From assembly GCF_040250305.1 (NCBI RefSeq), contig NZ_CP158190.1, positions 5,178,001 to 5,242,000 on the forward strand: DNA of 64,000 bases, written 5' to 3'. A program made the position numbers and the translations under genes. Source of the stretch: Peribacillus frigoritolerans. GTDB taxonomy: Bacteria; Bacillota; Bacilli; Bacillales; DSM-1321. The notes beneath the pieces were generated by a model. The model made no database searches, was not told the origin of the DNA, and saw nothing but the letters and a program-made list of their open reading frames with translations. Below are positions 23,414 to 48,583 of the stretch, one piece after another (position 1 is the stretch's first letter; every line of letters starts with the position of its first letter).

Positions 23414-23532
23414 GTTGATTGGGGCGGGTGTGCGGGACTCCGGCTTAGAAAAGCGCGTCTAAGGAGACTCCCGCAGGCGCAAGCCGAGGGCGGACCGCCC
23501 GCGGAAAGCGGGTGCCTGGATCGGTAATCAAC
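23414..23532 (+). repeat. GC-rich intergenic repeat, copy 1
   Basis: 119 bp with ends GTTGATT and AATCAAC and a GC-rich interior containing GCGGGACTCC, AAAAGCGCGTCTA, GGAGAC, CCGCAGGCGC, AAGCCGAGG and GGACCGCCCGCGGAAAGCG. Three related copies exist in this window (36874, 38502, 48451). Base composition is far from the surrounding AT-rich DNA. Complementary blocks such as GCGGG/CCCGC suggest a folded RNA or a MITE-like element. Apparent ORFs through it are artefacts. Neither flank shows a transposase gene. Confidence 0.85.
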
Positions 23533-23552
23533 GTCCAAATTGTACAACCCAT

Positions 23553-23598
23553 AAAAAAACTGAAGACAAACTTGATTTTCATCGAGTTTGTCTTCAGT
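23553..23598 (-). terminator. His operon terminator hairpin, part of the repeat surroundings
   Basis: ACTGAAGACAAACTTGAT (23559-23576) pairs with ATCGAGTTTGTCTTCAGT (23581-23598) over 18 bp, one G-U, loop TTTC; the minus strand continues TTTTTTTAT. A homologous hairpin follows the yvlB-like gene (37028-37070), and a decayed one lies at 38443-38487. Confidence 0.85.
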
Positions 23599-23632
23599 CT
23601 GAGCCCTCCTATTTACGGAGGGCAATCACCAT

Positions 23633-24289
23633 TCATTCGGTTTCTTTCGGTTCGTCCTTATCGGCATGTCTAGCCTTCAATACATCAAGCACTGCTTGGA
23701 AAGGCAACTCCTGCTCCTGAAGAAGAACGAATAAGTGATAGAGGAGATCGGCACTTTCCATCGAAAGTTCCTCTGCATCGCGGTTCTTAGCAGCAATGAT
23801 CACTTCTGCCGCTTCTTCACCTACTTTTTTCAGGATCTTATCAACGCCCTTATCGAATAGGTAGGTAGTATATGAACCTTCAGGCATTTCCGATTTTCTT
23901 TTTTTAATCAATTTTTCCAATTCCGTCAAGAAAGTCACATTCGCCTTCACGTCTTGTCCGGCTTCACTGTTTTGGTAAATGGTTTCGCTGAAACAGCTTG
24001 TTGCCCCTGTATGGCACGCAGGACCTGCAGGATCGACCCGAACGACCAATGCATCTTGATCGCAGTCATACTTCATTTCGATGATTTTCTGGGTATTACC
24101 GCTGGTTGCTCCTTTATGCCATAATTCATTGCGCGAACGGCTGAAGAATACCGTTTCACCTTTTTCAATCGACAATTGCAGTGATTCTTGATTCATATAA
24201 GCAAGTGTCAGCACTTCGCCGGTTCCTGCATCTTGAATAATTGCCGGTATCAGGCCTTTTTCGTCGTATTTAATAGTTTCAAGATTCAT
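23633..24289 (-). CDS. hisIE: Phosphoribosyl-AMP cyclohydrolase / phosphoribosyl-ATP pyrophosphatase (bifunctional)
   Basis: 218 residues. The HisI domain (about 1-115) has the Zn/Mg-binding pattern [32 protein letters not shown] and [10 protein letters not shown]. The HisE domain (about 120-210) has [24 protein letters not shown] and [10 protein letters not shown]. Together they hydrolyse PR-ATP to PR-AMP and open its ring to ProFAR, steps 2 and 3 of histidine synthesis. The fusion is usual in Bacillus. Start overlaps the hisF stop by 4 nt. It is the last his gene, followed by a terminator and repeat copy 1. Confidence 0.97.
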
Positions 24290-25044
24290 CGTACAACCAC
24301 TCCTTGTTGTTTGAGAAACGCTTTGACTTCTTTGACGGATGTTTCTTTATAATGAAAAATCGATGCGGCTAATGCTGCGTCGGCTTTACCTTTTTGGAAG
24401 GCTTCCTGGAAATGCTCAGCGTTGCCAGCCCCGCCTGAGGCGATGACCGGCACCGAAACGGCTTCAGATACCGCTTTTGTCAAAGCAATATTAAACCCTT
24501 GTTTCTCGCCGTCACAATCCATGCTTGTCAATAGTATTTCACCTGCACCGCGGATTACGGCTTCCTTCGCCCACTCGATCACTTCCCATTCAGTCGGTTT
24601 CCGGCCGCCGTGGGTATATACGCGCCATGACCCGAGCTCTTCTTCATATCGGGCGTCTATTGCGACCACGATACATTGGGAACCAAAATAATCAGCACCT
24701 TCATTAATTAAATCAGGGCGCAGAATGGCTGCTGTATTTAAGGAAACCTTATCGGCACCAGCTCGGAGGATCTTCTTCATATCCGCCAATGAATTAATGC
24801 CGCCGCCCACCGTGAACGGGATTGCCAAGCTGCCCGCTACCGCTTGAACGACGTCGACAATCGTTTCCCTGCCTTCATGTGATGCAGAAATATCCAGGAA
24901 GACAAGCTCATCGGCCCCTTCTTGGTCGTAAAAGGCTGCAAGTTCGACCGGGTCTCCTGCATCCCTAAGGGAAACAAATTGTATCCCTTTGACTACGCGC
25001 CCATCCTTTACATCTAGACATGGAATAATTCGTTTAGTGAGCAT
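24286..25044 (-). CDS. hisF: Imidazole glycerol phosphate synthase, cyclase subunit
   Basis: 252 residues, (beta/alpha)8 barrel. Catalytic Asp11 lies in [15 protein letters not shown] and the second Asp in [27 protein letters not shown] and [11 protein letters not shown] are the phosphate-binding loops. With HisH it converts PRFAR and glutamine-derived ammonia to imidazole glycerol phosphate and AICAR. Starts directly at the hisA stop (TAAATG). Confidence 0.98.
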
Positions 25045-25779
25045 TTAACCACGCACCTTTTCTAGTGCTTCTTCTACAGTAAAGCGATTGGTATAAAGCG
25101 CCTTGCCAATGATTGCCCCTGCAATGCCTTGGGCTTCATACTCTTTGAGGGTGATAAGGTCTTCGAGTGAACTAATGCCGCCCGAAGCAATCACGTTTTT
25201 ACCGGTTGCCTCCGCCATGGCCAATATACCTTTCACATTCGGACCTGAAAGCATCCCATCCGTCGCGATATCAGTCACGATAAATGTCTCTGCACCAGCA
25301 TCGGCCAGTAATTTACCAAGATCTATCGCTAGGGTCCCAGACGTTTGAAGCCAACCATGAGTGGCAACCCTGCCATCCTTGGCATCGATCCCGATTGCGA
25401 TATGGCTTCCATATTTCCTAATCATATCTTTAGTGAAATCAGGGTCTGAAACGGCCGTGCTGCCTAGAATGACACGTTCCACACCATGATCCAGATAATG
25501 GGCTATATCCTGTTCCGTACGGATGCCGCCGCCGATTTGAATGCGGGCCCCTAACTCACTTGCAGCTTTGATTACGTATGAATCATTGATGCGTACTCCC
25601 TCTTTAGCTCCGTCAAGGTCGACCATATGTATCCAATCGGCTCCTTGGTCCGCAAAGCTTTTCGCCATATCGAAGGGGGAATCGCCATAAACAGTTTCCT
25701 GATTGTAATCTCCCTGGATTAAGCGGACGCATTTGCCTCCGCGCATATCAATCGCCGGGTAAATAGTAAAGTTGCTCAT
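25045..25779 (-). CDS. hisA: ProFAR isomerase
   Basis: 244 residues, barrel homologous to HisF. Catalytic Asp8 in [14 protein letters not shown] and a second Asp in [15 protein letters not shown]; phosphate loops [10 protein letters not shown] and [11 protein letters not shown]. It carries out the Amadori rearrangement of ProFAR to PRFAR. Overlaps the hisH stop by 4 nt. Confidence 0.98.
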
Positions 25780-26408
25780 GCTTCTTCCTTCCCTTCTACT
25801 AATGACAGATAATTTTTTAACAGTGACATGCCCATCTTCCCGCTTTTTTCCGGATGGAACTGCATGCCGAACACATTCCCTTTACCGACGATCGCAGGCA
25901 CTTCCACATCATACCTTGCCGAAGCAGTGACGAATGATTCATCGGTATCGACGTAGTAGGAATGGACGAAATAAACATGCTCCTCTTCCAGTCCCTCATT
26001 CACTGGTGATGCTTGTTTGAATTCAAGACGATTCCAGCCCATGTGCGGGACTTTATAAATCTGGTCATTCGCATCCACTCCCTTAAAACGAACGACTTTC
26101 CCCGGGATGAGGGATAATCCTTTAGCCGGTCCATTTTCCTCACTTTCATTAAAGAGAAGCTGCATACCAAGGCAGATTCCTAATAGATAACCTCCATCGG
26201 CTACATATTCCCTCAGGAATTCATCCAGCTTTTGTTTTTCCAAGAGACTCATGGCATCCCTGAAAGAGCCAACGCCGGGAAGTATGATTCCTTTCGACTT
26301 TGAAAGTTCTTTTGGGTCATCGGAAATGAATGAATCGGCACCAAGGCGCTCAAGCCCTTTACTTACAGAAAATAAATTCCCCATGCCATAATCGACGATC
26401 CCGATCAT
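25776..26408 (-). CDS. hisH: Imidazole glycerol phosphate synthase, glutaminase subunit
   Basis: 210 residues, class I glutamine amidotransferase. Nucleophile Cys79 in [12 protein letters not shown], His/Glu of the triad in [13 protein letters not shown], oxyanion region PGVGSF. It supplies ammonia through a channel to HisF. Stop overlaps hisA; start is adjacent to the hisB stop. Confidence 0.97.
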
Positions 26409-26996
26409 TTACAACATTCCTTTCGTCGAAGGGATGCCTTTGACACGTGGATCGATGGTCGTAGCTTCATCCAATGCACGTCCCAGCGCTTTGAATATTG
26501 CTTCGATCATATGATGTGTGTTGTGACCGTAATGAACGACTACATGCAGGTTCATCCTGGCTTCAAGAGCGAATTTCCAAAGAAACTCGTGCACGAGTTC
26601 AGTATCGAAAGTACCCACCTTTTGCGAAGGAAACTCAGCCCGGAACTCTAGATGCGGACGATTGCTTAAATCGATGACAACCTGTGCGAGTGCTTCATCC
26701 ATGGGTACGAAAGCATTTCCATAACGCTTTATCCCGCGCTTGTCTCCAAGGGCCTCCAATAACGTCTGACCTAAGCAAATGCCAATATCTTCAGTTGTAT
26801 GGTGATCATCGACGTCTGTATCTCCGTTTGCATCTACGGTCAAATCAAACTTCCCATGTTTCGTGAACAAATCCAGCATATGCGTCATAAACGGAACGCC
26901 CGTCTTAATGGAGGAATTACCTTCCCCATCCACACCAAACTTCAAACTTATTTCCGTTTCATTCGTCTTTCGCTCCACACTAGCAAAACGTTCCAT
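26409..26996 (-). CDS. hisB: Imidazoleglycerol-phosphate dehydratase
   Basis: 195 residues, monofunctional HisB of the Gram-positive type. Mn2+-binding His clusters are DVDDHHTTEDIGICLGQ and VHYGHNTHHMIEAIFKALG. It dehydrates imidazole glycerol phosphate to imidazole acetol phosphate. A 100-bp gap separates it from hisD, larger than elsewhere in the operon, with no clear promoter. Confidence 0.98.
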   Translation of the reverse strand: MERFASVERKTNETEISLKFGVDGEGNSSIKTGVPFMTHMLDLFTKHGKFDLTVDANGDTDVDDHHTTEDIGICLGQTLLEALGDKRGIKRYGNAFVPMDEALAQVVIDLSNRPHLEFRAEFPSQKVGTFDTELVHEFLWKFALEARMNLHVVVHYGHNTHHMIEAIFKALGRALDEATTIDPRVKGIPSTKGML

Positions 26997-27096
26997 TACA
27001 ACTCCTCCTCAACGGGGTAAGACCCCTTTTCCCAAGATGTAAAAGCATGTCAAAAGTCTTTATATCAATGATTTCGCGTATTTTAATATTTCAGGA

Positions 27097-28377
27097 TTAT
27101 TTCCCGGACTCATTCACACCACGTGATTCAATGGCACGGGCGTGAGCCTCAAGTCCTTCCATTCGGGCAAATGCTGCGATTTTTTCTGCATTTTTGCGGA
27201 AAGCCGTTTCACTATACATGATGATGCTTGATTTCTTTTGGAAATCATCCACATTCAGCGGGCTGGAAAAACGGGCGGTTCCATTGGTGGGCAGCACATG
27301 ATTGGGGCCTGCAAAGTAATCCCCGACGGGCTCCGAACTAAAGCGGCCAATGAAGATTGCCCCGGCATGCCGGATTTTTGCCATGATTTCAAGTGCATCA
27401 TTGGCCACAATTTCCAAATGTTCCGGTGCAAGTTCATTAATCGCTTCGACAGCCTCCGCAATATTCCCGCATACAACGATCCTTCCATAATCCCTTATGG
27501 ATGCTGCAGCAATATCATGGCGTGGAAGTAACGCCACCTGCTTGGTCACTTCTGCGGCCACTTCTTCTGCAAGAGACGTTGACGTCGTGACCAAAACACT
27601 GCAAGCACGGGCATCATGCTCCGCCTGTGACAGCAAGTCTGCCGCAACTTCTGCCGCGATGGCGTTTTCGTCCGCCAATATCGCTATTTCACTTGGACCT
27701 GCTATCATATCAATGGCGACATCTCCGAATACTTCCCGCTTCGCTAACGCCACATATATATTTCCTGGACCCACTATTTTATCCACTTTCTTAATCGTTT
27801 CCGTCCCATAAGCTAGAGCAGCTATTGCCTGTGCCCCGCCAACTTTATAGATTTCCTTAACTCCGGCAATTTTGGCAGCTGCCAAAACCGCTGGCGATAA
27901 TTTTCCATCCTTCCCTGGCGGAGACACCATAACGATCCGTTCCACCCCCGCGGCCTTCGCAGGCAACGTATTCATCAGTACTGAGGAAGGATAGGCCGCT
28001 GTGCCCCCAGGTACATAAACACCTACAGCATCAAGAGGTGTTAATTTTTGTCCTAGCATCGTTCCCGTATCATCAGTCGTAAACCATGAATTTCGAATTT
28101 GTTTCTCGTGAAACATTCGAATATTATTCGCGGCTTCTTGTATAATATCAAGCTGCTCAGCAGTTAAGGATGCTGTCGCTTCTTCCATTTCCTGTTCCGA
28201 TACAAGTAATTCCCCTGCACTGACACCATCGAAACGTTCGGTATAGGTATGTAAAGCGGCGTTTCCGCTTTTCCTGACATCATAAATAATATCCTGAACC
28301 GCTTTTCTTTGATCGGCAGTACCTGCATCAACCGAGCGTTTCAGTGAAATCCCTTCAGCAAACCGTTCTATTTTCAT
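27097..28377 (-). CDS. hisD: Histidinol dehydrogenase
   Basis: 426 residues. Motifs include VGVYVPGGTAAYPSSVLM, KVGGAQAIAALAYGT, IDMIAGPSEIAILAD and the catalytic HLEIV / AGPNHVLPTNGTARF segment. The zinc enzyme performs two NAD-dependent oxidations from histidinol to histidine. The last step of the pathway is placed early in the operon, after hisG, as in B. subtilis. Confidence 0.98.
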   Translation of the reverse strand: MKIERFAEGISLKRSVDAGTADQRKAVQDIIYDVRKSGNAALHTYTERFDGVSAGELLVSEQEMEEATASLTAEQLDIIQEAANNIRMFHEKQIRNSWFTTDDTGTMLGQKLTPLDAVGVYVPGGTAAYPSSVLMNTLPAKAAGVERIVMVSPPGKDGKLSPAVLAAAKIAGVKEIYKVGGAQAIAALAYGTETIKKVDKIVGPGNIYVALAKREVFGDVAIDMIAGPSEIAILADENAIAAEVAADLLSQAEHDARACSVLVTTSTSLAEEVAAEVTKQVALLPRHDIAAASIRDYGRIVVCGNIAEAVEAINELAPEHLEIVANDALEIMAKIRHAGAIFIGRFSSEPVGDYFAGPNHVLPTNGTARFSSPLNVDDFQKKSSIIMYSETAFRKNAEKIAAFARMEGLEAHARAIESRGVNESGK

Positions 28378-28403
28378 ACCTTCACCTCATTAGCGATTCT
28401 TAA

Positions 28404-29033
28404 CTATTCAATAATTTCTGCTAGCCGTTCTACGATTTCGGTAATCCTTGCTTCTTTGATTCGATAGCTGACAGGGTTTGCCACCAGCCTCGAAGTCACA
28501 TTGGCGATTTTTGCATATTCCACAAGACCGTTTTCCTTCAATGTCCGCCCCGTTGAAACGATATCGACGATTCGTTCAGCTAAACCAATTAACGGTGCTA
28601 ACTCAATAGACCCATTCAACTTTATAATCTCGACTTGCTCCCCCTGCTCACGAAAATAACTGGAGGCAACATTCGGATATTTACTGGCTATTTTAGGGGC
28701 GATGTCACTTATTTTCGTACCAGGCAGTCCAGCTACAGCTAAATAGCAGGCACTGATTTTCAAATCAAGTAACTCATAGACATCACGTTCTTCCTCTAAC
28801 ATGACATCCTTTCCTGCAATTCCAATGTCAGCGACGCCGTGTTCCACATAGGTTACGACATCCATCGGTTTAGCTAAAATGAACCGCAGATTTTCCTCTT
28901 CCACTTCAAGGATCAATTTCCGGGAATCATCAAACTCGGGAGGGAGACGAAAACCGGCCCTTCTTAATAGCTCTGCCGCTTCTTCAAAGATTCTTCCTTT
29001 CGGCATGGCAATCGTTAAAAAGCTATTATTCAT
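28404..29033 (-). CDS. hisG: ATP phosphoribosyltransferase, short catalytic form
   Basis: 209 residues from [20 protein letters not shown]. Substrate-binding segments [22 protein letters not shown] and [14 protein letters not shown] are clear. The short HisG lacks the C-terminal regulatory domain and needs HisZ. It commits PRPP and ATP to histidine synthesis and is the feedback point. Two in-frame ATGs lie upstream (29042, 29051), within the hisZ coding end; ATG at 29033 overlaps the hisZ stop (ATGAATAA) and follows GGGGGGTATGGAAAAG, so it is preferred with moderate confidence. Confidence 0.93.
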
Positions 29034-30210
29034 CTTTTCCATACCCCCCATTCCCTACGAATAAATGAACTTCAGAAAATGTCCGTGTAAAGGCATCGAC
29101 ATTTTGGACGACCGTAATATCTTGAATCGTTACCAATTTTCCTTCGGAGCGTTTAATTCTTGCAAATTCAATGGCTTCCAATCTTCGTTCGGGACTGTAT
29201 AAAATACATTCTGGCGCGACAGGCTGGATTGGCTCCCCAAGAGCTTCTGCAAGACGATCCACCCGGATTGCAAAACCTGTGGCCGAAGCATTCCAACCGA
29301 ACTTCTCGAGCAGATTATCATACCGGCCGCCATTGCCGATTGGCGAACCTACTTGTCCGGCATACACTTCAAATAAAGTTCCTGTGTAATAGCTCATATG
29401 ACTGACCAATGTTAAATCAAAGCTCACATATTGTTCAACGCCAAATTCTTTCAGCTGCGCAGACAATTCCTTCAGTTCAGCCAAAGAATCCTGCCCTTTA
29501 TTATTTTCAACCAACCCCAGCGCCTTTATCAGGGTCCCTTCACTGCCCCTTAATGAGGTAAATTCGATAAGCCGTTGTTTATCTATGGATGAAAGCGGCA
29601 GTGATTTAACATGCTCGCGATAACCAACATAATTCTTTTCATACAAAAACTTCCTTAATATAGAGGCTCTTTCCTCCGTACCTAGAATGCTCAAGAAAAA
29701 TTCCTGCAGAAACCCAATATGCCCAATGGAAATTTTAAATTCCTGAAGCCCGGCAGCCTTTAGAGCATCCGCAAGCAGGGCAATCATTTCAGCATCGGCA
29801 CTAATGGCCTTATTTCCGATGCACTCAATACCAATCTGTTCGAATTCTGCCGGCCTGCCTCCTTCACGCTGCTGTGCCCGGTATACATTCGCGGAATAGG
29901 CCAGGCGAAGCGGAATTTGCTCTTTTAACAATTTGGATGCTGCGACCCGTGCAATGGGGGCTGTCATCTCGGGACGGAGTACGAGCGTATGCCCCTGTGA
30001 ATCAAGAAGTTTAAACAACTGTTGATCCAATATTGCCGAAGCCTCGCCAATTGTTTCATAATATTCCAAAGCAGGCGTTTCAATAAATTGATAGCCCCAC
30101 TTCTTGATTTCATCACTCATTTTATTTCTGGCCGACACTTTCGTTTCATACAGCACCGGCAATGTATCTCTCATGCCTAACGGTTTTTCAAACATAAATG
30201 GCTTTGTCAC
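29026..30210 (-). CDS. hisZ: ATP phosphoribosyltransferase regulatory subunit
   Basis: 394 residues, a paralogue of histidyl-tRNA synthetase that has lost aminoacylation. Class II motifs are visible: motif 2-like [28 protein letters not shown] and [17 protein letters not shown]. It forms a hetero-oligomer with short HisG and confers histidine sensitivity. The start is GTG at 30210, preceded by AAAAGGATG. It is the first gene of the his operon. Confidence 0.95.
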
Positions 30211-30700
30211 GACTGCACATCCTTTTGAAATATTGATTACTATCTATATCCAATCGGTCCGCCTGTAGGCAAAAACCGATGCATCCATTCCTTATTTTGT
30301 TTATCCCTTTATCTTTCCAAGGTTTCACGCTTAAATCCAAATTTCGGATAACATATAAAAATAGTATCAAATAAAATGACATAATCATATAAATACTCAC
30401 AATAATCTATTAAATTACTTTAGTTCGCTAATATGGTAGCAGGTTGAAGTTACTAATAGTTTACTCTCGCTCCCATCTTACGTCAAGGAAAATATGCCTA
30501 ATTCCATTACTTCAAACCACAGCTATCTTTAATATTCTTCATGATCGATTTAAGTCCAAATGCAAGGAATTATACCTTTTTACCCAGATGATTCTTCCTA
30601 TCTTTAGCCATTCATTGTTATTAATGTATACCTTTTGGTTTAGCTGTTTTATAATATTCAGGAGTTTGGTAATATTATAAAATTTTAGGGGGAAATGGGA
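30211..30700. other. Divergent intergenic region between hisZ and the surface-protein gene
   Basis: 490 bp, AT-rich. A hairpin (ATCGGT 30253-30258 with ACCGAT 30275-30280, plus inner GCCT/AGGC) lies in the hisZ leader. I find no T-box signature and no terminator T-run after this hairpin, so the mode of his regulation is not apparent. TATAAT at 30650-30655 could serve the plus-strand gene but has no good -35. Confidence 0.4.
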
Positions 30701-31756: not shown

Positions 31757-31757
31757 G

Positions 31758-32399: not shown

Positions 32400-32404
32400 G
32401 ATAT

Positions 32405-32426
32405 GGGGCTGAAGTTTTTCAGCCCC
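32405..32426 (+). terminator. Hairpin after the sortase gene
   Basis: GGGGCTGAA (32405-32413) and TTCAGCCCC (32418-32426), loop GTTT; the following CTCTTC is a poor T-run, so termination may be partial and the next small ORF may be co-transcribed. Confidence 0.6.
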
Positions 32427-36646: not shown

Positions 36647-36773
36647 ACAAAGCATTATCGATTTATTGTTTTTTTATTCACTTCACCCGGATTGGCCACG
36701 TGAACAAAAAAGGATGATAGGAACATTACATCAATAAAAGAAAGCCCCCCATTTATATTGGCAGGCTCACTTT

Positions 36774-36865
36774 GCAGACAAAAAGGATTGGAAACGTATC
36801 TTTCATCAAATGATGTTCCCGAACCAACTCCAAAGCAACTCCTGAGGTATGGTTTCGATACAAAA
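36774..36865. repeat. Conserved flank shared with the yvcD upstream region (copy B)
   Basis: ACAAAAAGGATTGGAAA, TTTCAT, TGTTCCCGAACC and CTGAGGTATGGTTTCGA line up in order with copy A at 23327-23398. It lies upstream of hprK. A 10-20 bp indel near TTTCATCAAATGATG is the main difference. Confidence 0.7.
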
Positions 36866-36873
36866 ATTGGATG

Positions 36874-36998
36874 TTGATTTCCGCTCAAGAAACTCGCTTT
36901 CCGCGGGCGGTCGTGGAGCCTCCTCGGCTTGCGTCTGCGGGGTCTCCCCTAGACGCGCTTTTCTAAGCAGGAGTCTCGTACCTTCCTCTTCAATCAAC
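36874..36998 (-). repeat. GC-rich intergenic repeat, copy 2
   Basis: 125 bp bounded by GTTGATT and AATCAAC. Read on the minus strand it contains ACGAGACTCCTGC, AAAAGCGCGTCTAG, GGAGACCCCGCAG, AAGCCGAGGAGGCTCC, GACCGCCCGCGGAAAGCG and GAAATCAAC, clearly homologous to copies 1 and 4. Its orientation relative to the adjoining flank and terminator hairpin is opposite to that of copy 1. Confidence 0.87.
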
Positions 36999-37027
36999 CT
37001 TGTTATTAAATTTAGAGAACAAGCCAT

Positions 37028-37070
37028 AAAAAAATGCAGGCAAACTCGTTTTCCATCGAGTTTGCCTACA
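37028..37070 (-). terminator. Terminator hairpin after the yvlB-like gene
   Basis: TGCAGGCAAACTCG (37035-37048) pairs with CGAGTTTGCCTACA (37057-37070), followed by TTTTTTT on the minus strand. It is homologous to the his operon hairpin at 23559-23598 (shared CAAACTCG-TTTTC-ATCGAGTTTG core). Confidence 0.85.
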
Positions 37071-37109
37071 GTTTGAGCCGCCAGTGGTATCAACGGGTTT
37101 TCCCTTTCT

Positions 37110-38390: not shown

Positions 38391-38418
38391 ATGCACACCG
38401 TCATTTTTCTACAAAAAA

Positions 38419-38436
38419 ACAAGCCAGATGGCTTGT
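38419..38436. repeat. Hairpin ACAAGCC-AGAT-GGCTTGT, left copy
   Basis: Nearly identical to the uvrA terminator hairpin exactly 300 bp to the right (38719-38736). The two bracket repeat copy 3 and look like a duplication made when the repeat arrived. Confidence 0.7.
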
Positions 38437-38442
38437 TCCAGA

Positions 38443-38487
38443 CTATAGACAAATTCAAAGAAAACGAGTTTGCCTGCAGTTTTTTTA
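38443..38487 (+). terminator. Decayed terminator-like hairpin beside repeat copy 3
   Basis: CTATAGACAAATTC and GAGTTTGCCTGCAG with TTTTTTTAT after it on the plus strand. It is homologous to the hairpins at 23559 and 37035 but partly mismatched, and it faces no plus-strand gene. Confidence 0.55.
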
Positions 38488-38501
38488 TAAAAACCCGTTC
38501 C

Positions 38502-38621
38502 ATTGATTTCAGAAATCCGCTCCCTTTCCGCCGACTGTCTGCCAAGCCTCCTCACCGCAAGCGGCTGTGGGGTCTTGGCTAGCCAGCTATTCGGCAGGAG
38601 TGTCGCAAATTTCTTCAATCC
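38502..38621 (-). repeat. GC-rich intergenic repeat, copy 3 (diverged)
   Basis: About 120 bp between ATTGATT and a partial AATC end. On the minus strand GCGACACTCCTGCC, AAGACCCCACAGCCGC, GAGGAGGCTTGGCAG, CGGCGGAAAGGGAGCGGA and GAAATCAAT follow the same order as the other copies with substitutions. It fills most of the yvlB-uvrA gap. Confidence 0.75.
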
Positions 38622-38718
38622 ATTAAGGATTACCGTAAAAAACCACTAAGGATAATCAAGTTTTGTTTTAAAATCATGGTTAGGATCAGACCATTCCGGA
38701 TTTGGGTTCCAAACTGAA

Positions 38719-38736
38719 ACAAGCCTGATGGCTTGT
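38719..38736 (-). terminator. uvrA terminator hairpin (right copy)
   Basis: ACAAGCC (38719-38725), loop TGAT, GGCTTGT (38730-38736), then TTCAGTTT on the minus strand, 5 nt after uvrA. Confidence 0.7.
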
Positions 38737-38740
38737 TCTT

Positions 38741-41620
38741 TTAAGCATGTTCATGCTCCGTTTCTTTTTCTTCAATCCAATTTTCCATGCGGATTTGATC
38801 ACGGGTAAGTACAGGTTTTAAGTATTTTCCCGTGTACGATTCGGAAACTTCACATATTTTTTCAGGTGTTCCATAAGTGACGATCGTACCGCCCTTATCT
38901 CCGCCTTCCGGTCCCAGGTCAATAATATGGTCCGCCGTCTTGATGACATCCAGATTATGCTCGATCACCAAAACGGTATCCCCATTGTCAACCAGCCGCT
39001 GCAGAACCTGGAGCAGCCTTGCTATATCGTGGACATGTAGACCGGTAGTTGGTTCATCCAAGATATAGAAGGAGCGCCCAGTGGATCGGCGATGCAATTC
39101 AGAAGCAAGTTTCACCCTTTGCGCTTCACCGCCTGATAAAGTGGTGGCAGGCTGTCCGAGCTTGATATAACCCAAACCAACGTCATAAATCGTTTGTAGC
39201 TTCCGTTTGATTTTTGGGATATTTTCAAAGAAACTAACGCCTTCCTCGACTGTCATATCGAGAATGTCGGATATGTTTTTCCCTTTATATTTCACTTCTA
39301 GAGTTTCCCGGTTATAACGTTTACCATGACAGATTTCACATGGGACATAGACATCTGGGAGAAAATGCATTTCAATCTTGATAATGCCATCACCACGGCA
39401 TGCCTCACAGCGTCCGCCCTTCACATTGAAACTGAACCTTCCTTTTTTATAACCGCGGATCTTAGCTTCATTAGTCGAGGCAAACACGTCACGAACATCA
39501 TCGAATACACCCGTATAGGTAGCTGGATTGGATCGTGGGGTCCTGCCGATTGGTGATTGGTCAATATCAATGACTTTATCTAAATGCTCAATCCCCTTGA
39601 TTTCACGGAAATCGCCTGGTCTGGCTTTTGCCCGGTTCAGCTTTTGAGCCAATGACTTATGGAGGATCTCATTCACCAATGTACTTTTCCCTGATCCCGA
39701 GACTCCCGTTACGGCTGTAAAGACCCCAAGCGGGAATTTCACATTAACGTTTTTTAAATTATTTTCCTTGGCACCTTTTATCTCAATGACACGGCCATCA
39801 TTTTTCCGGCGTTCCAATGGCAATGGAATGAATTTCTTCCCTGCTAAATATTGCCCCGTTAAGGATTTAGGATTATTCATGACCTCTTCCGGAGTTCCAG
39901 CGGCCACTATTTCCCCTCCATGCGCTCCTGCTCCAGGACCAACATCGATCAAATAATCCGCAGCAATCATCGTATCTTCATCATGCTCGACAACAATGAG
40001 TGTGTTGCCGATTTCGCGCATATTCTTCAATGTTTCGATCAATCGATCGTTATCCCTCTGATGCAGCCCTATTGAAGGTTCATCCAAAATATATAGGACT
40101 CCCGTCAATCGGGAACCGATCTGTGTCGCCAATCTTATACGCTGCGCTTCACCGCCTGATAATGTTCCCGCTGCCCTGCTCAACGTCAAATATTCCAAAC
40201 CTACATTAGCCAGGAAACCAAGCCGCTCACGAATTTCACGTAAAATCAATCTCGCAATTGCAGCTTCTTTTTCAGTCAAATCAAGCTTATCGAAAAATAC
40301 TAACGCATCCTCCACTGATAAAGCTGTCGTTTCACTTATATGGACACCTTGAATGAGCACGGAAAGACTCTCTTTTTTCAATCGATGACCCTTACAGCTA
40401 GGACAGTGATGTTCTGACATGTATTTCTGCATTTGCTCACGAATAAAGTCAGAACTCGTCTCCTTGAAGCGCCTTTCGATGTTTCTTAAAACTCCTTCAA
40501 AAGGAATATATCCTTCTTGCACTCTTCCAAAATCATTTTTATACCGGAAATATATCTTATCTTTACCTGAACCAAGCAAGACCTTATCCATCTTCTCTTC
40601 CGGTAAATCTTTAACGGGCACATCCATATCTATCCCATAATGGTTTGCCACCGCTTCAAGGAGCTGAGGATAATATTGAGAACTCGTCGGCTCCCATGGC
40701 GCAATTGCATGTTGACGGAGGCTTAATTCGTTATTGGGGATGACCAGATCACGGTCCACCTCAAGCCTTGCCCCCAAGCCATCACAATCCGGGCAGGCCC
40801 CAAACGGACTATTGAAGGAAAACATTCTAGGCTCTAACTCTTCAATCGAAAATCCGCAGTATGGACAAGCATGATGTTCACTGAACAGCAGCTCTTCCTC
40901 ACCCATGACGTCAATGATGACTTTGCCTTCGCCAAGCTGCAAAGCACTTTCCAATGAATCTGCAAGCCTGGCCATGATACCCTCTTTAATGACGATCCGG
41001 TCTATGATGACTTCAATCGAATGTTTTTTATTTTTTTCGAGAGTGATCTCATCGCTGAGATCATGCATTTCCCCGTTCACACGAATGCGGACATATCCTT
41101 GTTTCTTAACTTCCTCCAAAACCTTCGCATGTGTCCCTTTTCTGCCTGAGACTAGCGGTGCCAATACTTGAAGCTTGGTTCGCTCAGGGTAATCAAGAAT
41201 GCGGTCCACCATTTGTTCGATCGTTTGTGAGGTGATTTCAATATTATGGATCGGACAGGTCGGCCTGCCGACCCGTGCAAATAACAGCCTTAAATAATCA
41301 TAGATCTCCGTAACAGTCCCTACGGTTGAACGAGGATTCCGACTGGTCGTTTTCTGGTCTATGGAAATGGCTGGTGACAAACCTTCGATCGCATCGACAT
41401 CCGGTTTATCCACTTGGCCTAAGAATTGACGAGCATAAGCGGACAGTGATTCTACATAACGTCTTTGCCCTTCTGCATAAATCGTATCAAAAGCCAAGGA
41501 AGACTTCCCAGATCCGGATAATCCGGTCAGCACAACAAGTTTGTCTCTCGGTATCGTGATATCAATATTCTTTAAATTGTTGGCCCTGGCGCCTTTTATC
41601 ACAATTTTATCCATTGCCAT
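38741..41620 (-). CDS. uvrA: Excinuclease ABC subunit A
   Basis: 959 residues, two ABC ATPase modules. Walker A motifs GLSGSGKSS (about 32) and GVSGSGKST (about 640), signature [17 protein letters not shown] and [15 protein letters not shown], zinc-finger Cys pairs [20 protein letters not shown]...CPDC and CEACRGDG...CEICHG. UvrA dimers scan DNA for bulky lesions and load UvrB. ATG is preceded by GAAGGGTGA, which contains the uvrB stop, so the pair is tightly coupled. Confidence 0.98.
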
Positions 41621-41626
41621 GTTTCG

Positions 41627-43615
41627 TCACCCTTCCGCTTTTAACTCTAGTAATAAATCACGCAGCTCGGCAGCTCGCTCGAAGTCCAGTGCCTTTGCCG
41701 CTTCCTTCATTTCTTTTTCCATGCTTGCCATCACTTTTAAACGCTCTTTTTTAGGGAGCTTCGCAAGGCTTGGTGCAAGATCTTCCTTATACTCTTCGCC
41801 TTCTTCGGCTACATGAGTCGCCCTTATGGAGTCGCGGATATCCTTTTGAATGGTTTGAGGCATTATTCCATGCTCTTTATTATAATTTTCCTGAATTTCA
41901 CGGCGCCGCCTCGTTTCATTGATGGCAAGTTCCATCGAATTCGTGATGCGGTCTGCATACATGATGACGTGGCCGTTGGCATTACGGGCTGCACGGCCCA
42001 TCGTTTGAATAAGCGAACGTTCCGAGCGAAGGAAACCTTCTTTATCGGCATCCAGAATGGTCACTAACGACACTTCCGGAATATCGAGGCCTTCCCTTAA
42101 AAGATTTATCCCAACAAGAACATCATATTTGCCCATTCGAAGTTCCCGGATGATTTCTATCCTTTCCAAGGTCTTCACTTCCGAATGAAGATATTGGACC
42201 TTGATGCCGATTTCCTTTAAATAATCAGTTAAATCCTCAGACATCTTTTTCGTCAAGGTCGTTATGAGCACACGCTCGTTCTTTTTGACGCGCTCCTGTA
42301 TTTCACCGATCAGGTCATCTATTTGCCCTTCAATCGGCCGCACTTCCACCGTCGGATCCAGCAATCCGGTAGGACGGATGATCTGCTGAACCATTTCTGG
42401 CGTATGTTCGAGTTCATATGGTCCCGGAGTTGCCGAAACGAATATGGATTGATGGACCTTTTTTTCAAATTCTTCAAACCTTAGCGGCCGGTTATCTTTC
42501 GCAGACGGCAGACGGAAGCCATGATCGACGAGCACTTGCTTACGCGCCTGATCTCCATTGAACATTCCGCGGATCTGCGAAAGGGTTACGTGTGATTCAT
42601 CCACAACCAATAGGAAGTCCTCTGGAAAGTAATCTATTAAAGTGTATGGTGTTGCACCTGAGGGACGAAGGGTTAAATGGCGGGAATAGTTCTCGATCCC
42701 TGAACAAAAGCCCATTTCCCGCATCATTTCCAGATCATAACGGGTCCGCTGCTCCAAGCGCTGCGCTTCAAGGAGTTTTTCATCTTCCCTTAATTCCTTC
42801 AATCGCTCTTCCAGTTCCGTTTCGATATTTTGAATGGCTATCCGCATTTTCTCTTCGCGGGTTACGAAGTGGGAAGCCGGGAAAATGGCGATATGATCTC
42901 GTTCACCGGTAATTTCGCCAGTCAGGGCATCGACTTCACGAATACGGTCAATCTCATCCCCGAAAAACTCTACCCGTACGCAATGTTCATCACGTGAGGC
43001 CGGGAAAATTTCGACCACGTCGCCGCGAACGCGGAAGGTCCCCCGTTGGAAAGCAATATCATTACGTTCATATTGAATATCCACGAGTCTGTGCAGCAAG
43101 GCATTCCGGTCTATCTCCATTCCTGTTCGGAGGGAAACGACCATCTCCCGGTACTCTTCAGGAGAACCGAGTCCATATATGCACGAAACACTGGCAATGA
43201 TGATGACATCTTTCCTTTCAAACAAGGACGAGGTTGCCGAGTGACGCAGTTTATCGATTTCATCATTGATGCTTGCATCTTTTTCGATGAATGTATCCGT
43301 GGATGGAACATAAGCCTCTGGCTGGTAGTAATCATAATAGCTAACGAAGTACTCAACGGCATTATTAGGGAAGAACTCTTTGAACTCACTATAAAGCTGC
43401 CCTGCCAACGTTTTATTGTGGGCAATGACAAGAGTCGGTTTATTGATTCTTTGAATCACATTGGAAACGGTGAACGTTTTCCCTGTCCCCGTTGCCCCCA
43501 ATAACGTCTGCATTTCCTTGCCTTCCTTAATCCCTTCGACCAGCATTTCAATTGCTGCCGGCTGATCTCCTTGAGGAGAGTATTTTGAGACTAACTCAAA
43601 CTTATCCTTCACCAA
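41627..43615 (-). CDS. uvrB: Excinuclease ABC subunit B
   Basis: 662 residues. Helicase motif [14 protein letters not shown], the beta-hairpin [20 protein letters not shown] that clamps the DNA strand, DESHVT (motif II), TMGRAARN (motif VI), and the C-terminal UVR/coiled-coil segment for UvrC contact. UvrB verifies damage handed over by UvrA and recruits UvrC for dual incision. First gene of uvrBA. SOS control is usual in Bacillus; see the operator entry. Confidence 0.98.
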
Positions 43616-43705
43616 GCATAGCCTCCTATTGAAATATTTTTATATGAAAACGGGACATGCCTATATCCCTTCTATTTATTCCGGTTTGATAAAGCATATA
43701 TACAC

Positions 43706-43757
43706 ATTCTACCACAATAGCCTTAAAACAAACCAGCAATAAGCGAACATCCATTCT
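43706..43757 (-). promoter_or_regulatory. uvrBA promoter and weak LexA-like box
   Basis: Extended -10 TGGTAGAAT (43706-43714, minus strand) lies about 90 bp upstream of uvrB, with only weak -35 candidates. CGAACATCCATTCT (43744-43757) resembles the Bacillus LexA/DinR box GAAC-N4-GTTC with one mismatch. The promoter is moderately supported, the operator weakly. Confidence 0.4.
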
Positions 43758-43810
43758 ATTTTTGTTTTATGGCTTCATGATGTGTTGAGGAGAATGACAA
43801 GTTTGGGTAC

Positions 43811-43838
43811 AAAAAAAGCACCTTTTGTGTCAGGCGCT
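43811..43838 (-). terminator. Intrinsic terminator of csbA
   Basis: AGCACC (43817-43822) and GGCGCT (43833-43838) pair, overlapping the last csbA codons, followed on the minus strand by TTTTTTT. Confidence 0.7.
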
Positions 43839-44060
43839 CTTGGATGTACGTTTCATCATTCTTTTTGATAACCAAAATCCCACTGTCAGGGATAAGGCAT
43901 CGACGATGATCAATAAGTTTGTATGCGTATAACCTTTATATGCGGAAGCTGTAATCAAGGCAACAGTTAAAACAAGGCCCACGACATTGTTATAGGTGAC
44001 TCTTGAAAATAGCATGACAAGTAGACAAGGAAGGAAAAGGGCAGAAAGAAATTTAATCAT
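43830..44060 (-). CDS. csbA: CsbA-like small membrane protein
   Basis: 76 residues, the same length as B. subtilis CsbA, with three hydrophobic segments (FLPCLLVMLF, VVGLVLTVALITASAYKGYT, NLLIIVDALSLTVGFWLS) and a basic tail. CsbA is a sigma-B-controlled protein of unknown function encoded just upstream of uvrBA, as here. I did not find a convincing sigma-B promoter before this copy. AAAGGAGATG precedes the start. Confidence 0.85.
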   Translation of the reverse strand: MIKFLSALFLPCLLVMLFSRVTYNNVVGLVLTVALITASAYKGYTHTNLLIIVDALSLTVGFWLSKRMMKRTSKSA

Positions 44061-44198
44061 TTTTTCATCTCCTTTATAAGAGAAAAATAGAGTAGTTTCA
44101 GTTTAAATGATTATCAAGTTTTTTGCCAATCAATTTCCCACTTGATTTTCAAGGCATCATCAGAAGAACATTCCACACATCCATCAATTATGCCCATT

Positions 44199-44242
44199 AA
44201 AAAAAGAGGCAAACCCCTTTAAAGGAAAGTTTGCCTCTTTTT
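44199..44242 (-). terminator. Intrinsic terminator of the catalase gene
   Basis: AAAGAGGCAAAC (44203-44214) and GTTTGCCTCTTT (44229-44240) with an inner CCTTT/AAAGG pairing, and T-runs on both sides. Confidence 0.88.
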
Positions 44243-44250
44243 TAGTCCAA

Positions 44251-45828
44251 TCAATATGGATCCGCTTCATGTCCTTTACTAACGGCGTCCTCAGGGTTAT
44301 CCGTCCCACCAAGTGGTTTTGAAGATTCCGTATGTTCAGAAGCCGAGGCCAGTCCCTCTTTCAATCTGCGGCCATACTCTTCATCGGCCTCTTCGGCAAG
44401 TGCTATCATTTTTTCCTGAATCCGCTTGTCGGCAGGAGCCAATGCCGCCACTAAATTGGAAATTAAATCGTCCTTTTCCCAATCCTCGAATTCACGGAAT
44501 GTTTCCCCGGCCTGTTTCGTATTGTTTTGGCGATCGATTGTCTCACGAACAAGTTTCCCTTCCACCATAGGTGTATACTCCTTGCCCGTCTGCTTAGCTT
44601 CTTTCAAGCCGCCGACAGTTGATGGTTCGTAGTTGATGTGGGGGCTTTGGCTGCCTCTGCCAACTTCATATTGCATCTGTCCGCCAGTCTGATTCGTGGC
44701 TGTTCGTTTCTTCGGAGCATTGATCGGCAATTGCAGATAATTCGCACCAACACGGTGACGTTGTGTATCGGAATAAGAGAATGTACGTCCCTGTAACATC
44801 TTGTCATCAGAAAAGTCCAGCCCATCCACTAGTACACCTGTGCCGAATGCAACCTGTTCGACTTCAGTGAAATAGTCTTCAGGGTTTTTATTCAATACCA
44901 TCGTACCGACATGCAGCCAAGGGAACTCATCTTTCGGCCAGATCTTCGTATCATCCAGCGGATCAAAATCCAACTCAGGATGATCATCATCACTCATGAT
45001 TTGTACGTTGAGATCCCATTCAGGATAGTCTCCGCGTTCGATCGCTTCATATAGATCCTGTGTGGCATGATTGAAATTCGTAGCTTGAATTTCATTGGCC
45101 TCTTGCTGTGTCAGGTTCTTGATCCCTTGTTTCGGTTCCCAATGATACTTGACAAGCACTGCTTTCCCTTCCTCATTCACCCATTTATAAGTATTGACCC
45201 CTGACCCCTGCATCATGCGGTAGTTAGCTGGTATGCCCCATGGGGAAAACACAAAGGTAACCATATGGAATGTTTCAGGCGAACTCGCACAAAAATCAAA
45301 AATCCTCCTGCCGTCCTGAATATTCGTGACCGGATCCGGTTTGAAGGCATGAATCAAATCCGGGAATTTCATGGCATCACGGATGAAGAAAATTTTCAAG
45401 TTATTGCCTACAAGATCCCAGTTGCCATCTTCCGTATAAAATTTAACGGCAAATCCCCTGGGATCACGTAACGTTTCCGGGGACGTCCCCCCATGAATAA
45501 CAGATGAGAATCTCACGAATACCGGGGTTTTTTTACCTTCTTCCTGAAAAACCTTCGCTCTCGTATATTTTGAAATAGGCTCGTCCCCCGCTTTACCGGT
45601 CGGAACAAAATAACCATGTGCACCTGCACCACGGGCATGCACGACCCGTTCAGGAATGCGCTCCCTATCGAAGTGGCTGATTTTTTCCAGGAAATCATAG
45701 TTCTCAAGTGTACTAGGTCCTCTGTTCCCTACAGTTCTAATACTCTGGTTATTCGTTACCGGGTGCCCTTGCCTGTTCGTTAATGTTTCTTTCGATTCAT
45801 CATTTGTTTTTTTAGATTTATCAGACAA
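44251..45828 (-). CDS. katA: Catalase (monofunctional heme)
   Basis: 525 residues from a TTG start ([20 protein letters not shown]). The distal His lies in [14 protein letters not shown], the Asn in [13 protein letters not shown], and the proximal heme-ligand Tyr in [18 protein letters not shown]. It dismutates hydrogen peroxide in the cytoplasm. The GTG-initiated frame 10 codons longer lacks a ribosome-binding site, while the TTG has GGAGGG at spacing 6. The acidic C-terminal tail ([20 protein letters not shown]) goes slightly beyond the core. No clear PerR box was found; the paralogue (KatA, KatB or KatX type) cannot be fixed. Confidence 0.92.
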
Positions 45829-46050
45829 AAAAATCCCTCCTCTGTTAATAAAATCCACAATACTACTATACTTTCCCCTATTCCCTATATTTCACTCCTC
45901 AATCTTCGAATTTAATTGTAATTAGTTAAAAAGTACTTTTCCCTATGTATCGATGAGCATATTTCTTGCCAATAACAACTGGTCTGAATCATATAATGAT
46001 AAGAAAGCTTTGAAGCATTTAGTAGAAAAATGGAGTGAGCATACCCATTT

Positions 46051-46080
46051 TTGTATATGTAAACAGCACACCATTATAAT
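46051..46080 (+). promoter_or_regulatory. Candidate promoter of the MMPL gene
   Basis: TTGTAT (46051-46056), 18 bp spacer, TATAAT (46075-46080) on the plus strand, about 38 bp before the start. Confidence 0.55.
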
Positions 46081-46118
46081 GAACTAAGGATAAAAAATCA
46101 AAAAGCGGGGTGCCTTCA

Positions 46119-48341
46119 TTGGACGAATCAATATTAGGAAGACTTGGCAGGATGATGACGGGAAAAATCAGTCGTTGGGTTGTCATTGCTGTATGGATAA
46201 TTGCAGCAATCGGATTAACCATCACATTGCCTGCCGTTAATGATCGAACAGCAAATAATGCCGCTGACTTGCCTGAAGACTCACCTTCCGTCGTGGCTGA
46301 TGAACTTATTAAAGAAGAGTTTCCAAATTCCTCTGGAATACCTGCCCTGCTTACATGGCATCGGGAGGGTGGACTGACAGAGGCCGACTTGGCCGAAATC
46401 CAGTACCTTTCCAAGGAACTGTCAGATAACCCATTGACGCAGCAATCTTTTTTACCGCCGCTTCATGAAATTCCGTTGCCTGCTCTTCAAGGATCGGTTT
46501 CTGAAGATGGAACGACTTTCGTACAGCCGCTTTTCTTTAAAGAAAAGACCGAGACTGAAATTCTTGAAAAAAATCTTGAAAGCATTAATGAAACAGTATC
46601 GGAACGCATTGGATCGGACCCATTCAAGGTCCCGACAGATTCAGATGAATTATCACTTCGAGTGACAGGCCCTGTAGGGATATCCGTCGATGCAACGGGA
46701 TTATTTTCGGGTGCTGATTTTAAATTGCTATTAGCGACCGTAATACTTGTACTTGTCGTATTATTACTCATTTACCGTTCCCCGCTTTTAGCAATCATTC
46801 CTTTAATCGGAGTAGGCTTCGCCTATATTGTCACAAGCCCGATCCTTGGATTCATGGCAGATCATGGTTGGATCACAGTCGATTCACAGGCCATTTCGAT
46901 CATGACCGTATTATTATTCGGTGCCGGAACGGATTATTGTCTATTTTTAATTTCTCACTACAGAAGTGAATTAAGAAATCATGAAAGCAAACGGAAAGCC
47001 ATGATCTCTGCATTCAAAGATTCATCAGGCGCCATTGCGATGAGCGGCCTTACGATCGTCATCTCGCTGCTAACATTGCTTGTAGCGAAATACGGAGCCT
47101 ACCACCGTTTCGCTGTACCATTCAGCTTGTCGATTTTAATCATGATGATGGCAGCTTTAACACTTGTACCGGCATTGCTTTCTGTATTCGGAAGGGCTTC
47201 CTTCTACCCAATCGTTCCGCGTACACCAGAAATGGAAGAAACACGGGCCAAGAAAAAGGGAAAAGCCGTCAAAAAGCATAAAGAAGGCCGCATCGGTAAC
47301 TGGATTGGTCATATCGTCACAACCAAGCCATGGACCGTCATTCTTACATGCTTGATCATCTTCAGTGTATTAGCTGGATATTCTTCACAAATAAAATATT
47401 CATATGATATTCTCTCTTCCTTTCCTGAAGATATGAACTCCCGTGAAGGCTATTCTGTCATTTCCGACTCGTACTCACCGGGCGAACTGGCACCAGCCAC
47501 AGTGGTTGTCGACACGGATGGTGAAGATATCGATTTAGCCCAGGCAATTGAAGGAATGAATATTGTTGAAAGTGTGGCCGATCCGGTCACAAGTAAATCC
47601 AATGAAGATCTGCAATCCTATGAGGTCAAATTCAACATCAACCCATATGATATCGAGGCAATTGATTCCATTCCGGAAATCCGCACAATTGCGGAGAAAG
47701 AATTGAAGGCCGCCAATATATCTTCCGTCGAAGATAAGGTTTGGATTGGCGGGCAAACTGCGACGCAATTCGATAAAAGGGATACCGTAAAAGCCGATGA
47801 ATTCATGATCATCCCGATCATCATCGTCCTGATTTCCTTGCTTCTTTTAGCCTACTTGCGATCTGTGACAGCAATGGTGTATTTAATGGGGACAGTCATT
47901 CTCTCATTCTTTGCAGCTATGGGCTTAGGTTGGATAATCCTGCACTATTTCATGGGTGTCGATGCCATAGAGGGGACGATTCCACTTTATTCTTTCGTAT
48001 TCCTTGTTGCACTTGGAGAAGACTATAACATTTTCATGGTTTCAAGTATTTGGCGTAAGAAAGAAACGATGCCAATCAAGCAGGCCATCAGAAAAGGCGT
48101 TGCCGAAACTAGCGGTGTCATCACTTCCGCCGGAATAATCCTGGCAGCCACTTTTTCCGTTCTAGCCACACTTCCGATTCAAGTATTGGTTCAATTCGGG
48201 CTCATTACTGCTCTTGGTGTGTTAATGGACACATTCATTGTGCGACCGTTCCTTGTTCCTGCGATCACCTCCCTGCTTGGCCGCCGTGCCTTTTGGCCAA
48301 GTAAAGTGACCGATCAAGAAGAGAAAGAACATGCCAATTAA
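46119..48341 (+). CDS. MMPL/RND-family membrane transporter
   Basis: 740 residues from a TTG start (MDESILGRLGRMMTGKISRW) chosen because GCGGGGTG lies 6 nt upstream; a GTG three codons earlier is possible. Two homologous halves each have an N-terminal helix, a large extracytoplasmic loop and about five further helices, typical of MMPL proteins such as YdfJ and YdgH. FGAGTDYCLFLISHYRSEL and ALGEDYNIFMVSSIWRKKE are the paired motifs in the membrane domain holding the Asp residues of the proton pathway. Likely lipid or drug exporter; substrate unknown. The context (catalase, YceI) gives no clue. Confidence 0.88.
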   Translation: MDESILGRLGRMMTGKISRWVVIAVWIIAAIGLTITLPAVNDRTANNAADLPEDSPSVVADELIKEEFPNSSGIPALLTWHREGGLTEADLAEIQYLSKELSDNPLTQQSFLPPLHEIPLPALQGSVSEDGTTFVQPLFFKEKTETEILEKNLESINETVSERIGSDPFKVPTDSDELSLRVTGPVGISVDATGLFSGADFKLLLATVILVLVVLLLIYRSPLLAIIPLIGVGFAYIVTSPILGFMADHGWITVDSQAISIMTVLLFGAGTDYCLFLISHYRSELRNHESKRKAMISAFKDSSGAIAMSGLTIVISLLTLLVAKYGAYHRFAVPFSLSILIMMMAALTLVPALLSVFGRASFYPIVPRTPEMEETRAKKKGKAVKKHKEGRIGNWIGHIVTTKPWTVILTCLIIFSVLAGYSSQIKYSYDILSSFPEDMNSREGYSVISDSYSPGELAPATVVVDTDGEDIDLAQAIEGMNIVESVADPVTSKSNEDLQSYEVKFNINPYDIEAIDSIPEIRTIAEKELKAANISSVEDKVWIGGQTATQFDKRDTVKADEFMIIPIIIVLISLLLLAYLRSVTAMVYLMGTVILSFFAAMGLGWIILHYFMGVDAIEGTIPLYSFVFLVALGEDYNIFMVSSIWRKKETMPIKQAIRKGVAETSGVITSAGIILAATFSVLATLPIQVLVQFGLITALGVLMDTFIVRPFLVPAITSLLGRRAFWPSKVTDQEEKEHAN

Positions 48342-48378
48342 TAAAGGTAGTAAGCTTTACTTTTCTTCATAATTAAAA

Positions 48379-48405
48379 ACCCTGTGCCCCATAAATGCAC
48401 AGGGT
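48379..48405 (+). terminator. MMPL-gene terminator hairpin (left copy of a duplicated pair)
   Basis: ACCCTGTGC (48379-48387) and GCACAGGGT (48397-48405), loop CCCATAAAT, 38 nt after the MMPL stop. A near copy lies at 48618-48644 beyond repeat copy 4. Confidence 0.75.
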
Positions 48406-48450
48406 TTGAGTTTGTAGACAAAATGGGTTTTACCTAAAATTTCAAAACAA

Positions 48451-48583
48451 ATTGATTGGAACTGGAACGGAAGGTGCGAGACTCCTGCCGGAAAAGCGCG
48501 TCGAGGGGAGACCCCGCAGGCGCAAGGCGCCGAGGAGGCTCCCGGACCGCCCGCGGAAAGCGATGCCTGGAGTTGAAATCGAC
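48451..48583 (+). repeat. GC-rich intergenic repeat, copy 4
   Basis: 133 bp bounded by ATTGATT and AATCGAC. It holds GCGAGACTCCTGCC, AAAAGCGCGTCGAG, GGAGACCCCGCAGGCGC, GCCGAGGAGGCTCC and GGACCGCCCGCGGAAAGCG, the best preserved interior of the four copies. It lies between the MMPL gene and the YceI-family gene. Confidence 0.88.

Follow-up and report, generated by a model that had tools for sequence, protein, structure and literature searches.

Dispersed GC-rich repeats of Peribacillus frigoritolerans are very probably miniature derivatives of an IS1182-family insertion sequence and are placed on terminators

Four dispersed GC-rich repeats occur in a 64-kb stretch of the Peribacillus frigoritolerans genome (this whole stretch is called the window, and the 5.6-Mb genome that contains it, G000, is called its own genome). 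A preliminary description of this DNA had proposed that they are either a non-autonomous mobile element or a structured RNA. We found that the four repeats are very probably miniature inverted-repeat transposable elements (MITEs) which derive from an insertion sequence (IS) of the IS1182 family, are seated on transcription terminators and carry a folded core, a cassette of about 110-135 nt that forms one long imperfect hairpin. The earlier interpretation is supported on both of its sides, mobility for copies 2, 3 and 4 and a conserved structure for the core; this structure may act as RNA or as single-stranded DNA, the comparison of G.U with A.C pairs being a weak test.

The full-length element measures 1,741-1,744 bp in six copies. 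It begins with CAGACTGTAGACAAAC and finishes with TTTTGTCTACAAACTGA, which are terminal inverted repeats of the full copies, and between them lie, in this order, the core on its C-rich strand, placed between the IS end and the start of the transposase gene (tnp), and a transposase of about 452 aa. The transposase of a full copy from a Peribacillus relative (L239) matches the NCBIfam IS1182 model NF033551 with 465.2 bits, the cut-off being 270. In the window, the copies have IS-like ends around the core and no transposase, and therefore they are MITEs. The mobile unit of copies 2-4, of about 209-310 bp, is framed by IS-like ends with a terminator hairpin at either side; it is larger than the sequence blocks previously taken as the unit. 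These three copies show the features of a MITE (short length, no transposase, ends of a known IS, duplicated target), with a decayed right duplicate in copy 2; the exception is copy 1, without a clear duplication. Such MITEs would be internally deleted IS1182 derivatives that have kept both IS ends and the folded core and have lost the transposase gene. By eye, the left end of the MITE corresponds to the 3' end of the IS up to a short repeat, GTAGRCAAAAG, which is also present in the IS leader, and since this repeat stands at both places, loss of tnp by deletion between direct repeats would explain the MITEs.

The insertions abut terminators. Outside the IS end, a hairpin followed by a T-run was detected in 32 of the 34 readable ends (37 loci scanned), as against 3 of 34 control segments taken 150 nt further on; one of the two misses has a weak hairpin with a T-run and the other a strong hairpin without a T-run. 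The target is thus palindromic, as in some members of the IS1182 family, and the rho-independent terminator beyond the IS end differs from copy to copy. Ten full-copy loci were fetched, of which two (L241 and L246) were unusable; in seven of the other eight, 12-34 nt of the terminator hairpin is repeated on both sides of the element, and the eighth has a repeat of 5 nt only and an assembly gap inside. Replacement of the target without duplication, as in IS1272, is not what we observed, since a stem-loop is found at both sides in those seven full copies and in window copies 3 and 4. When the copies of its own genome were compared, an exact left/right repeat of at least 14 nt was found in 13 of 45, versus 3 of 200 mismatched pairs. 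Four of these 13 prove to be tandem or flank repeats and another counts window copy 4 a second time, so that 8 distinct copies are left.

The features of the four copies in the window are the following.

23414..23532 (profile 23415-23531), plus strand (G-rich strand): folded core of copy 1, profile score 70.1
23584-23602: right IS-like end of copy 1, GAGTTTGTCTTCAGTCTGA, 1 mismatch
near 23322: degenerate left end of copy 1, placed by eye
23603..23624: hairpin directly past the right end of copy 1, sequence gccctcctatttacggagggc
36768..37076, minus strand: whole MITE of copy 2, with IS-like ends at 36773 and 37058-37076
36874..36998 (profile 36875-36998), minus strand: folded core of copy 2, profile score 108
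36743..36767: left terminator hairpin at the site of copy 2, with a decayed right counterpart at 37077-37102
38438..38717, minus strand: whole MITE of copy 3, from a diverged subfamily, hairpin duplicated at both sides
38502..38622 (profile 38506-38622), minus strand: folded core of copy 3, profile score 71.1
38418..38437: left copy of the duplicated terminator of copy 3, AACAAGCCAGATGGCTTGTT; right copy at 38718-38737, 1 base different
48408..48616, plus strand: whole MITE of copy 4, site empty in relatives
48451..48583 (profile 48461-48580), plus strand: folded core of copy 4, profile score 112.3
48377..48407: left copy of the duplicated terminator of copy 4, AAACCCTGTGCCCCATAAATGCACAGGGTTT; right copy at 48617-48646, which differs at its start

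A profile search of the window returned these four matches, at the places named in the preliminary description, and none in 50 first-order Markov shuffles of the window. The high GC content that had been noted is confirmed as well (55-66% locally versus 34-41% in the flanking 100 + 100 bases). The motifs given as common to all copies fit well in copies 2 and 4, but copies 1 and 3 deviate: copy 1 has a deletion at the place of GCCGAGGAGGCTCC, and copy 3, which belongs to a diverged subfamily, is without AAAAGCGCGTC or GGACCGCCCGCGG. A further correction concerns orientation: copies 2 and 3 run on the minus strand, opposite to copies 1 and 4. For copy 1, we looked for a left duplicate matching the right-hand hairpin and saw none. 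By eye, in copy 2 and its G001 orthologue an internal segment, made of the core and some 15-20 bp beyond each of its ends, is reversed with respect to the outer ends; the orthologues in G004 and G006 (L292, L293 and L294 compared) have the reference orientation, and copy 2 reads as an in-place inversion.

Related genomes contain empty-site alleles for copies 2, 3 and 4, as foreseen for a mobile element; this comparison covers copies 2-4, and the orthologous loci L298-L304 and L311-L313 were left out of the reading. At the locus of copy 4, the insert is missing and the hairpin single in four of the five relatives read (G004, G006, G007 and G008); G001 carries a tandem pair of units. Core-free alleles with a single hairpin were observed for copy 3 in three of six relatives read: the segment AACAAGCC..GGCTTGTT, doubled in the window, is single in G006, G007 and G008 (loci L294 and L295 are among those with the single hairpin). 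At the same locus G011 is without the core, G001 has it and G004 contains a decayed full IS. For copy 2, such alleles are present in two of six relatives read, G011 (L296) and G007 (L297), and the other four have the core or a remnant of it.

The window copies belong to an abundant family, as had also been expected, with at least 43 matches in the same genome when copy 2 is the query and at least 45 with another copy. The IS-end motif occurs 108 times there and its reversed pattern 0 times; a core or core fragment lies within 260 bp of the end in 24 of 30 IS-end loci fetched among these 108. Of 20 copies taken from the close relative G006, 16 have an identical core and 2 more differ by a few bases; in these copies, the flank left of the G-rich strand runs into a reading frame on the opposite strand. 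The genome also contains one IS copy without a core, in which the terminal hairpin is joined straight to the tnp leader and the transposase frame is broken; by eye, the core-bearing IS differs from it by an insert of about 200 bp between direct repeats CTACAGT... One locus has four units with a 195-bp spacing, and tandem arrays of the unit with spacings of about 185-340 bp were seen at L044 (301-1013), L103, L132, L146 and L307.

The core folds, and its fold shows compensatory changes. From 394 profile matches, 283 near full length, we obtained 62 sequences after dereplication at 90% and, once 4 odd ones were removed, 58 sequences less than 90% alike. On these, a 37-pair hairpin has 92.6% of its cells paired and 26 of its 37 pairs show double changes, with 135 double-change cells against 27.9 in shuffles, so that the covariation looked for is present. 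Its covariation score is 0.218, compared with 0.103 for shuffled alignments and at most 0.055 for slid versions, over which it is favoured because the structure comes from the same sequences (it was taken from RNAalifold under other settings). The consensus fold returned by the tool itself has 11 pairs only, and 8 of these show compensation. Either strand can fold, and in 49 of 58 sequences the G-rich strand is the stabler. On that strand, G.U exceeds A.C by 70:32 when cells are counted and by 35:27 when sequence clusters are counted, a weak strand test. The fold itself is therefore present; it may act as RNA or as single-stranded DNA, and the wobble counts do not decide the strand.

Rfam 15 gave no gathering match on the window cores. 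Among six loci searched, the only matches on the core region were below threshold, tsr24 (E 0.23) and MNV_3UTR (E 0.45), both in L085. The match to tsr24, a small RNA family of S. aureus, covers the whole MITE (L085, 1838-2069); it is probably due to chance, and the tsr24 family could be related to IS1182. Long variants were seen at L087, L129, L115, L136, L125, L166 and L192; these have an additional insert, hairpin-like and a few tens of bases long, at GACTCCT^GCGGG. In addition, a variant with CTGCTTAGA in place of CTGCGGGA recurs across genera (window copies 1 and 2; L019, L177, L236 and L084), and this variation looks as if alleles had been exchanged between copies.

The core is not restricted to P. 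frigoritolerans. The repeat is carried by 11 of 13 Peribacillus genomes searched and was matched in 138 of 199 genomes, and 70 of 97 genera, in a sample of the order; in a sample of the phylum, the matching genomes were 5 of 398, namely its own genome, two from the order, one from the class and a fifth with a marginal match of 23 bases. In Sutcliffiella rhizosphaerae, IS1182-like ends flank the core and the terminators are doubled. The cores of Neobacillus, Cytobacillus and Metabacillus are found with GGCTSTGTTAAA-like ends, of which a genome of Cytobacillus yielded 123 and one of Neobacillus 53 (reversed pattern, 0 and 1). These ends, mostly about 170-231 bp apart, define a second type of MITE with the same core in Cytobacillus oceanisediminis (G030) and Neobacillus niacini (G023); among the places listed, we saw MITE-sized pairs and no full-length IS with GGCTSTGTTAAA ends. 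Around the cores of Alkalihalophilus pseudofirmus and Sutcliffiella horikoshii, neither a GGCTSTGTTAAA-ended nor an IS1182-ended unit was seen; in A. pseudofirmus OF4, the 3' part of the core stands in tandem with a spacing of about 124 bp (G021, 3345290-3345787, and other places). Cores or parts of cores are present in 14 plasmid records (H1-H14; 6 Priestia, 4 Peribacillus, 2 Bacillus and 2 Paenibacillus), and plasmids are a possible route between genera. Phage carriage was rejected, since no phage record matched. Complete cores of the Bacillales type in three contigs titled Pseudomonas sp. ISL-84 (L111, L123 and L189) suggest that the species is mislabelled or that the DNA is contaminated.

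In S. horikoshii, cores are found in sense orientation between cggR, gapA, pgk and tpiA and also ahead of two genes, groEL and a PdhC-like E2 to judge from their starts (all genes named by eye). The gapA-pgk gap has an insert of 141-143 bp in two strains and a clean empty site in three related genomes. This insert has no IS1182-type ends and contains about 12 + 8 extra bases outside its GTGATT..AATCAC ends, so the boundary of the insert is not that of the core itself. Across five strains, variable columns number 12 of 120 within the core of the cggR-gapA gap and 33 of 89 in its flanks (p 3e-6). A C-G pair is changed to U-A there, a G-C pair is A-U in one strain and broken in two, and a third pair is broken in one, so that 2 of 42 pairs are broken in one strain or more. 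For the core between pgk and tpiA, 22 of 112 paired columns are variable, versus 62 of 125 other columns; among the 56 pairs, 41 are invariant, 3 are compensated, 2 are kept by wobble and 10 are broken in some strain. The low variation of these resident cores would be explained by purifying selection or by gene conversion, either of which would do. The upstream gene reads into the G-rich strand at 63 of 100 sites (p 0.012), at 22 of 31 in Alkalihalophilus (p 0.029) and at 22 of 30 in S. horikoshii (p 0.016), in overlapping sets where some cores are partial, where one locus can contribute several cores and where open reading frames (ORFs) were called in a simple way.

From this material we propose the following mechanism. 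A transposase supplied in trans would recognise the ends TCAG..TGTAGACAAA and insert the element where a palindrome has its foot; stem-loops of intrinsic terminators would be the preferred palindromes, and the whole stem-loop would be duplicated. The target may be a cruciform or a stem-loop, as proposed for IS1272 (PMC5678879), and joining at its feet would duplicate rather than replace it. Insertion should then be largely harmless, because the upstream gene is left with a terminator and the element itself has one at either end. The core would ride on the IS and its MITEs in Peribacillus and on other short units in other genera, its fold being preserved through selection or through templating by intact copies. 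Within transcribed non-coding DNA, at the 3' side of genes or between cistrons, it may be a folded passenger that is tolerated and that some sites perhaps make use of.

Several observations speak against deriving the repeats from an IS1182 element, or limit its reach. The duplication is kept in just 13 of 45 copies of its own genome, 8 after pruning, and copy 1 has a right-hand hairpin only. Its own genome shows no intact IS1182 transposase among its six PF05598 matches (open frames of 34-180 aa, 4 with an internal stop, 5 beside cores), and thus the window copies may be immobile now. The IS copy without a core indicates that the core is not needed for insertion. Not all cores have IS1182 ends, as their surroundings differ in Neobacillus, Cytobacillus, Alkalihalophilus and S. 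horikoshii, and of 143 loci searched, 142 had profile matches and just 9 any match to the Peribacillus-type transposase.

We weighed other explanations, most of which concern the core. It could be a cis-acting RNA element for stability, processing or insulation in 3' untranslated or intercistronic mRNA, with mobile elements only spreading it, a reading that we hold as a tentative second choice. The compensatory changes, the sense cores of the cggR-gapA-pgk-tpiA region and before the groEL-like and E2-like genes, the bias of upstream genes towards the G-rich strand and the low divergence in the cggR-gapA gap all agree with it; however, gene conversion could also give this low divergence, pairs are broken in resident copies (2 of 42 and 10 of 56), the excess of G.U over A.C shrinks to 35:27 by clusters and the orientation sets have the limits given above. 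A wider proposal, rather unlikely in our view, is that a folded RNA cassette spread across the order hitch-hikes on unrelated elements and also moves by itself, and that in some lineages it has become a sense intercistronic mRNA element, for example in cggR-gapA-pgk-tpiA, with its fold largely maintained.

A comparably doubtful idea is that the core is an autonomous selfish element with its own putative enzyme, which has also inserted itself in IS1182 and in other MITEs. The clean presence or absence of 141-143 bp in S. horikoshii, the two kinds of carriers with different ends, and the Peribacillus cassette standing in the IS leader between short direct repeats in 0, 1 or 4 units (by eye) are in its favour, but no enzyme was found, the Y1 transposase family PF01797 having no match in the same genome, and the S. 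horikoshii insert is not bounded by the core ends. It is improbable that the core is instead a cis-acting DNA site, a single-stranded hairpin or cruciform required by the transposase: the core is indeed kept near most IS ends fetched, but the IS copy without a core exists and cores without IS1182 ends occur in other genera. As to a family like the repetitive extragenic palindromes (REP) moved by a RAYT (Y1) transposase, the repeats resemble it in being short, palindromic, intergenic and numerous; their ends and size differ, and PF01797 (Y1_Tnp), with 0 matches in the same genome, has matches in 5 of 14 control genomes, so we rejected this candidate, whose probability we regard as negligible.

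Comparison with known systems places the IS1182-derived repeats nearest to IS1272 and the pneumococcal BOX, which appear to be the closest systems in the way they work. IS1272 of staphylococci, also of the IS1182 family, has an IS1182 transposase and inserts at inverted repeats or stem-loops, and tandem duplication of one end region was reported for it (PMC5678879). According to that report, IS1272 takes the place of its target inverted repeat and produces no target-site duplication (PMC5678879); unlike it, the Peribacillus element duplicates the terminator stem-loop, which fits pathway b, drawn as a possibility in the same paper (PMC5678879). Prokaryotic MITEs are similarly short, non-coding, intergenic and folded, with IS-derived ends; the GC-rich core, the whole terminator as target and a core common to differently ended carriers distinguish the present ones from those reviewed there (PMC10969869). 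The pneumococcal BOX, RUP and SPRITE repeats, compared by description, are likewise modular folded intergenic repeats with a variable number of modules and sites in operons, whereas the family described here spreads across many genera (PMC3049150). Folded intergenic families of Bacillaceae include bcr1 of B. cereus and Bhal-1 of B. halodurans, the latter of 74 bp with 36 copies (PMC2267715); judged by description only, Bhal-1 may overlap the core in part. Our literature search, outside of which subscription papers lie, gave no recognised description of an order-wide folded cassette, and a search for sequence words of the repeat matched one short word in a single paper on C. elegans, unrelated to judge by its title and the opening of its abstract.

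The Peribacillus element thus provides an example, at the sequence level, of an IS1182-type element with whole terminators as target and with target-site duplication, and terminator targeting is a way of inserting without breaking gene ends. The folded module, present in 138 of the 199 genomes sampled in the order, corresponds to no Rfam family at threshold in the window. With strains that differ by one core copy within the gapA operon, its effect on the mRNA could be tested directly.

Within the window, the copies lie only between genes and encode no sensible protein, as previously stated. A protein-coding repeat was rejected: the overlapping ORFs of 95 aa (copy 2) and 89 aa (copy 4) are short readings of the repeat itself. 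The neighbouring genes, as named from their translations, are hisIE and a TPR gene for copy 1, a yvlB-like gene and hprK for copy 2, uvrA and the same yvlB-like gene for copy 3, and an MMPL-type and a yceI-like gene for copy 4.

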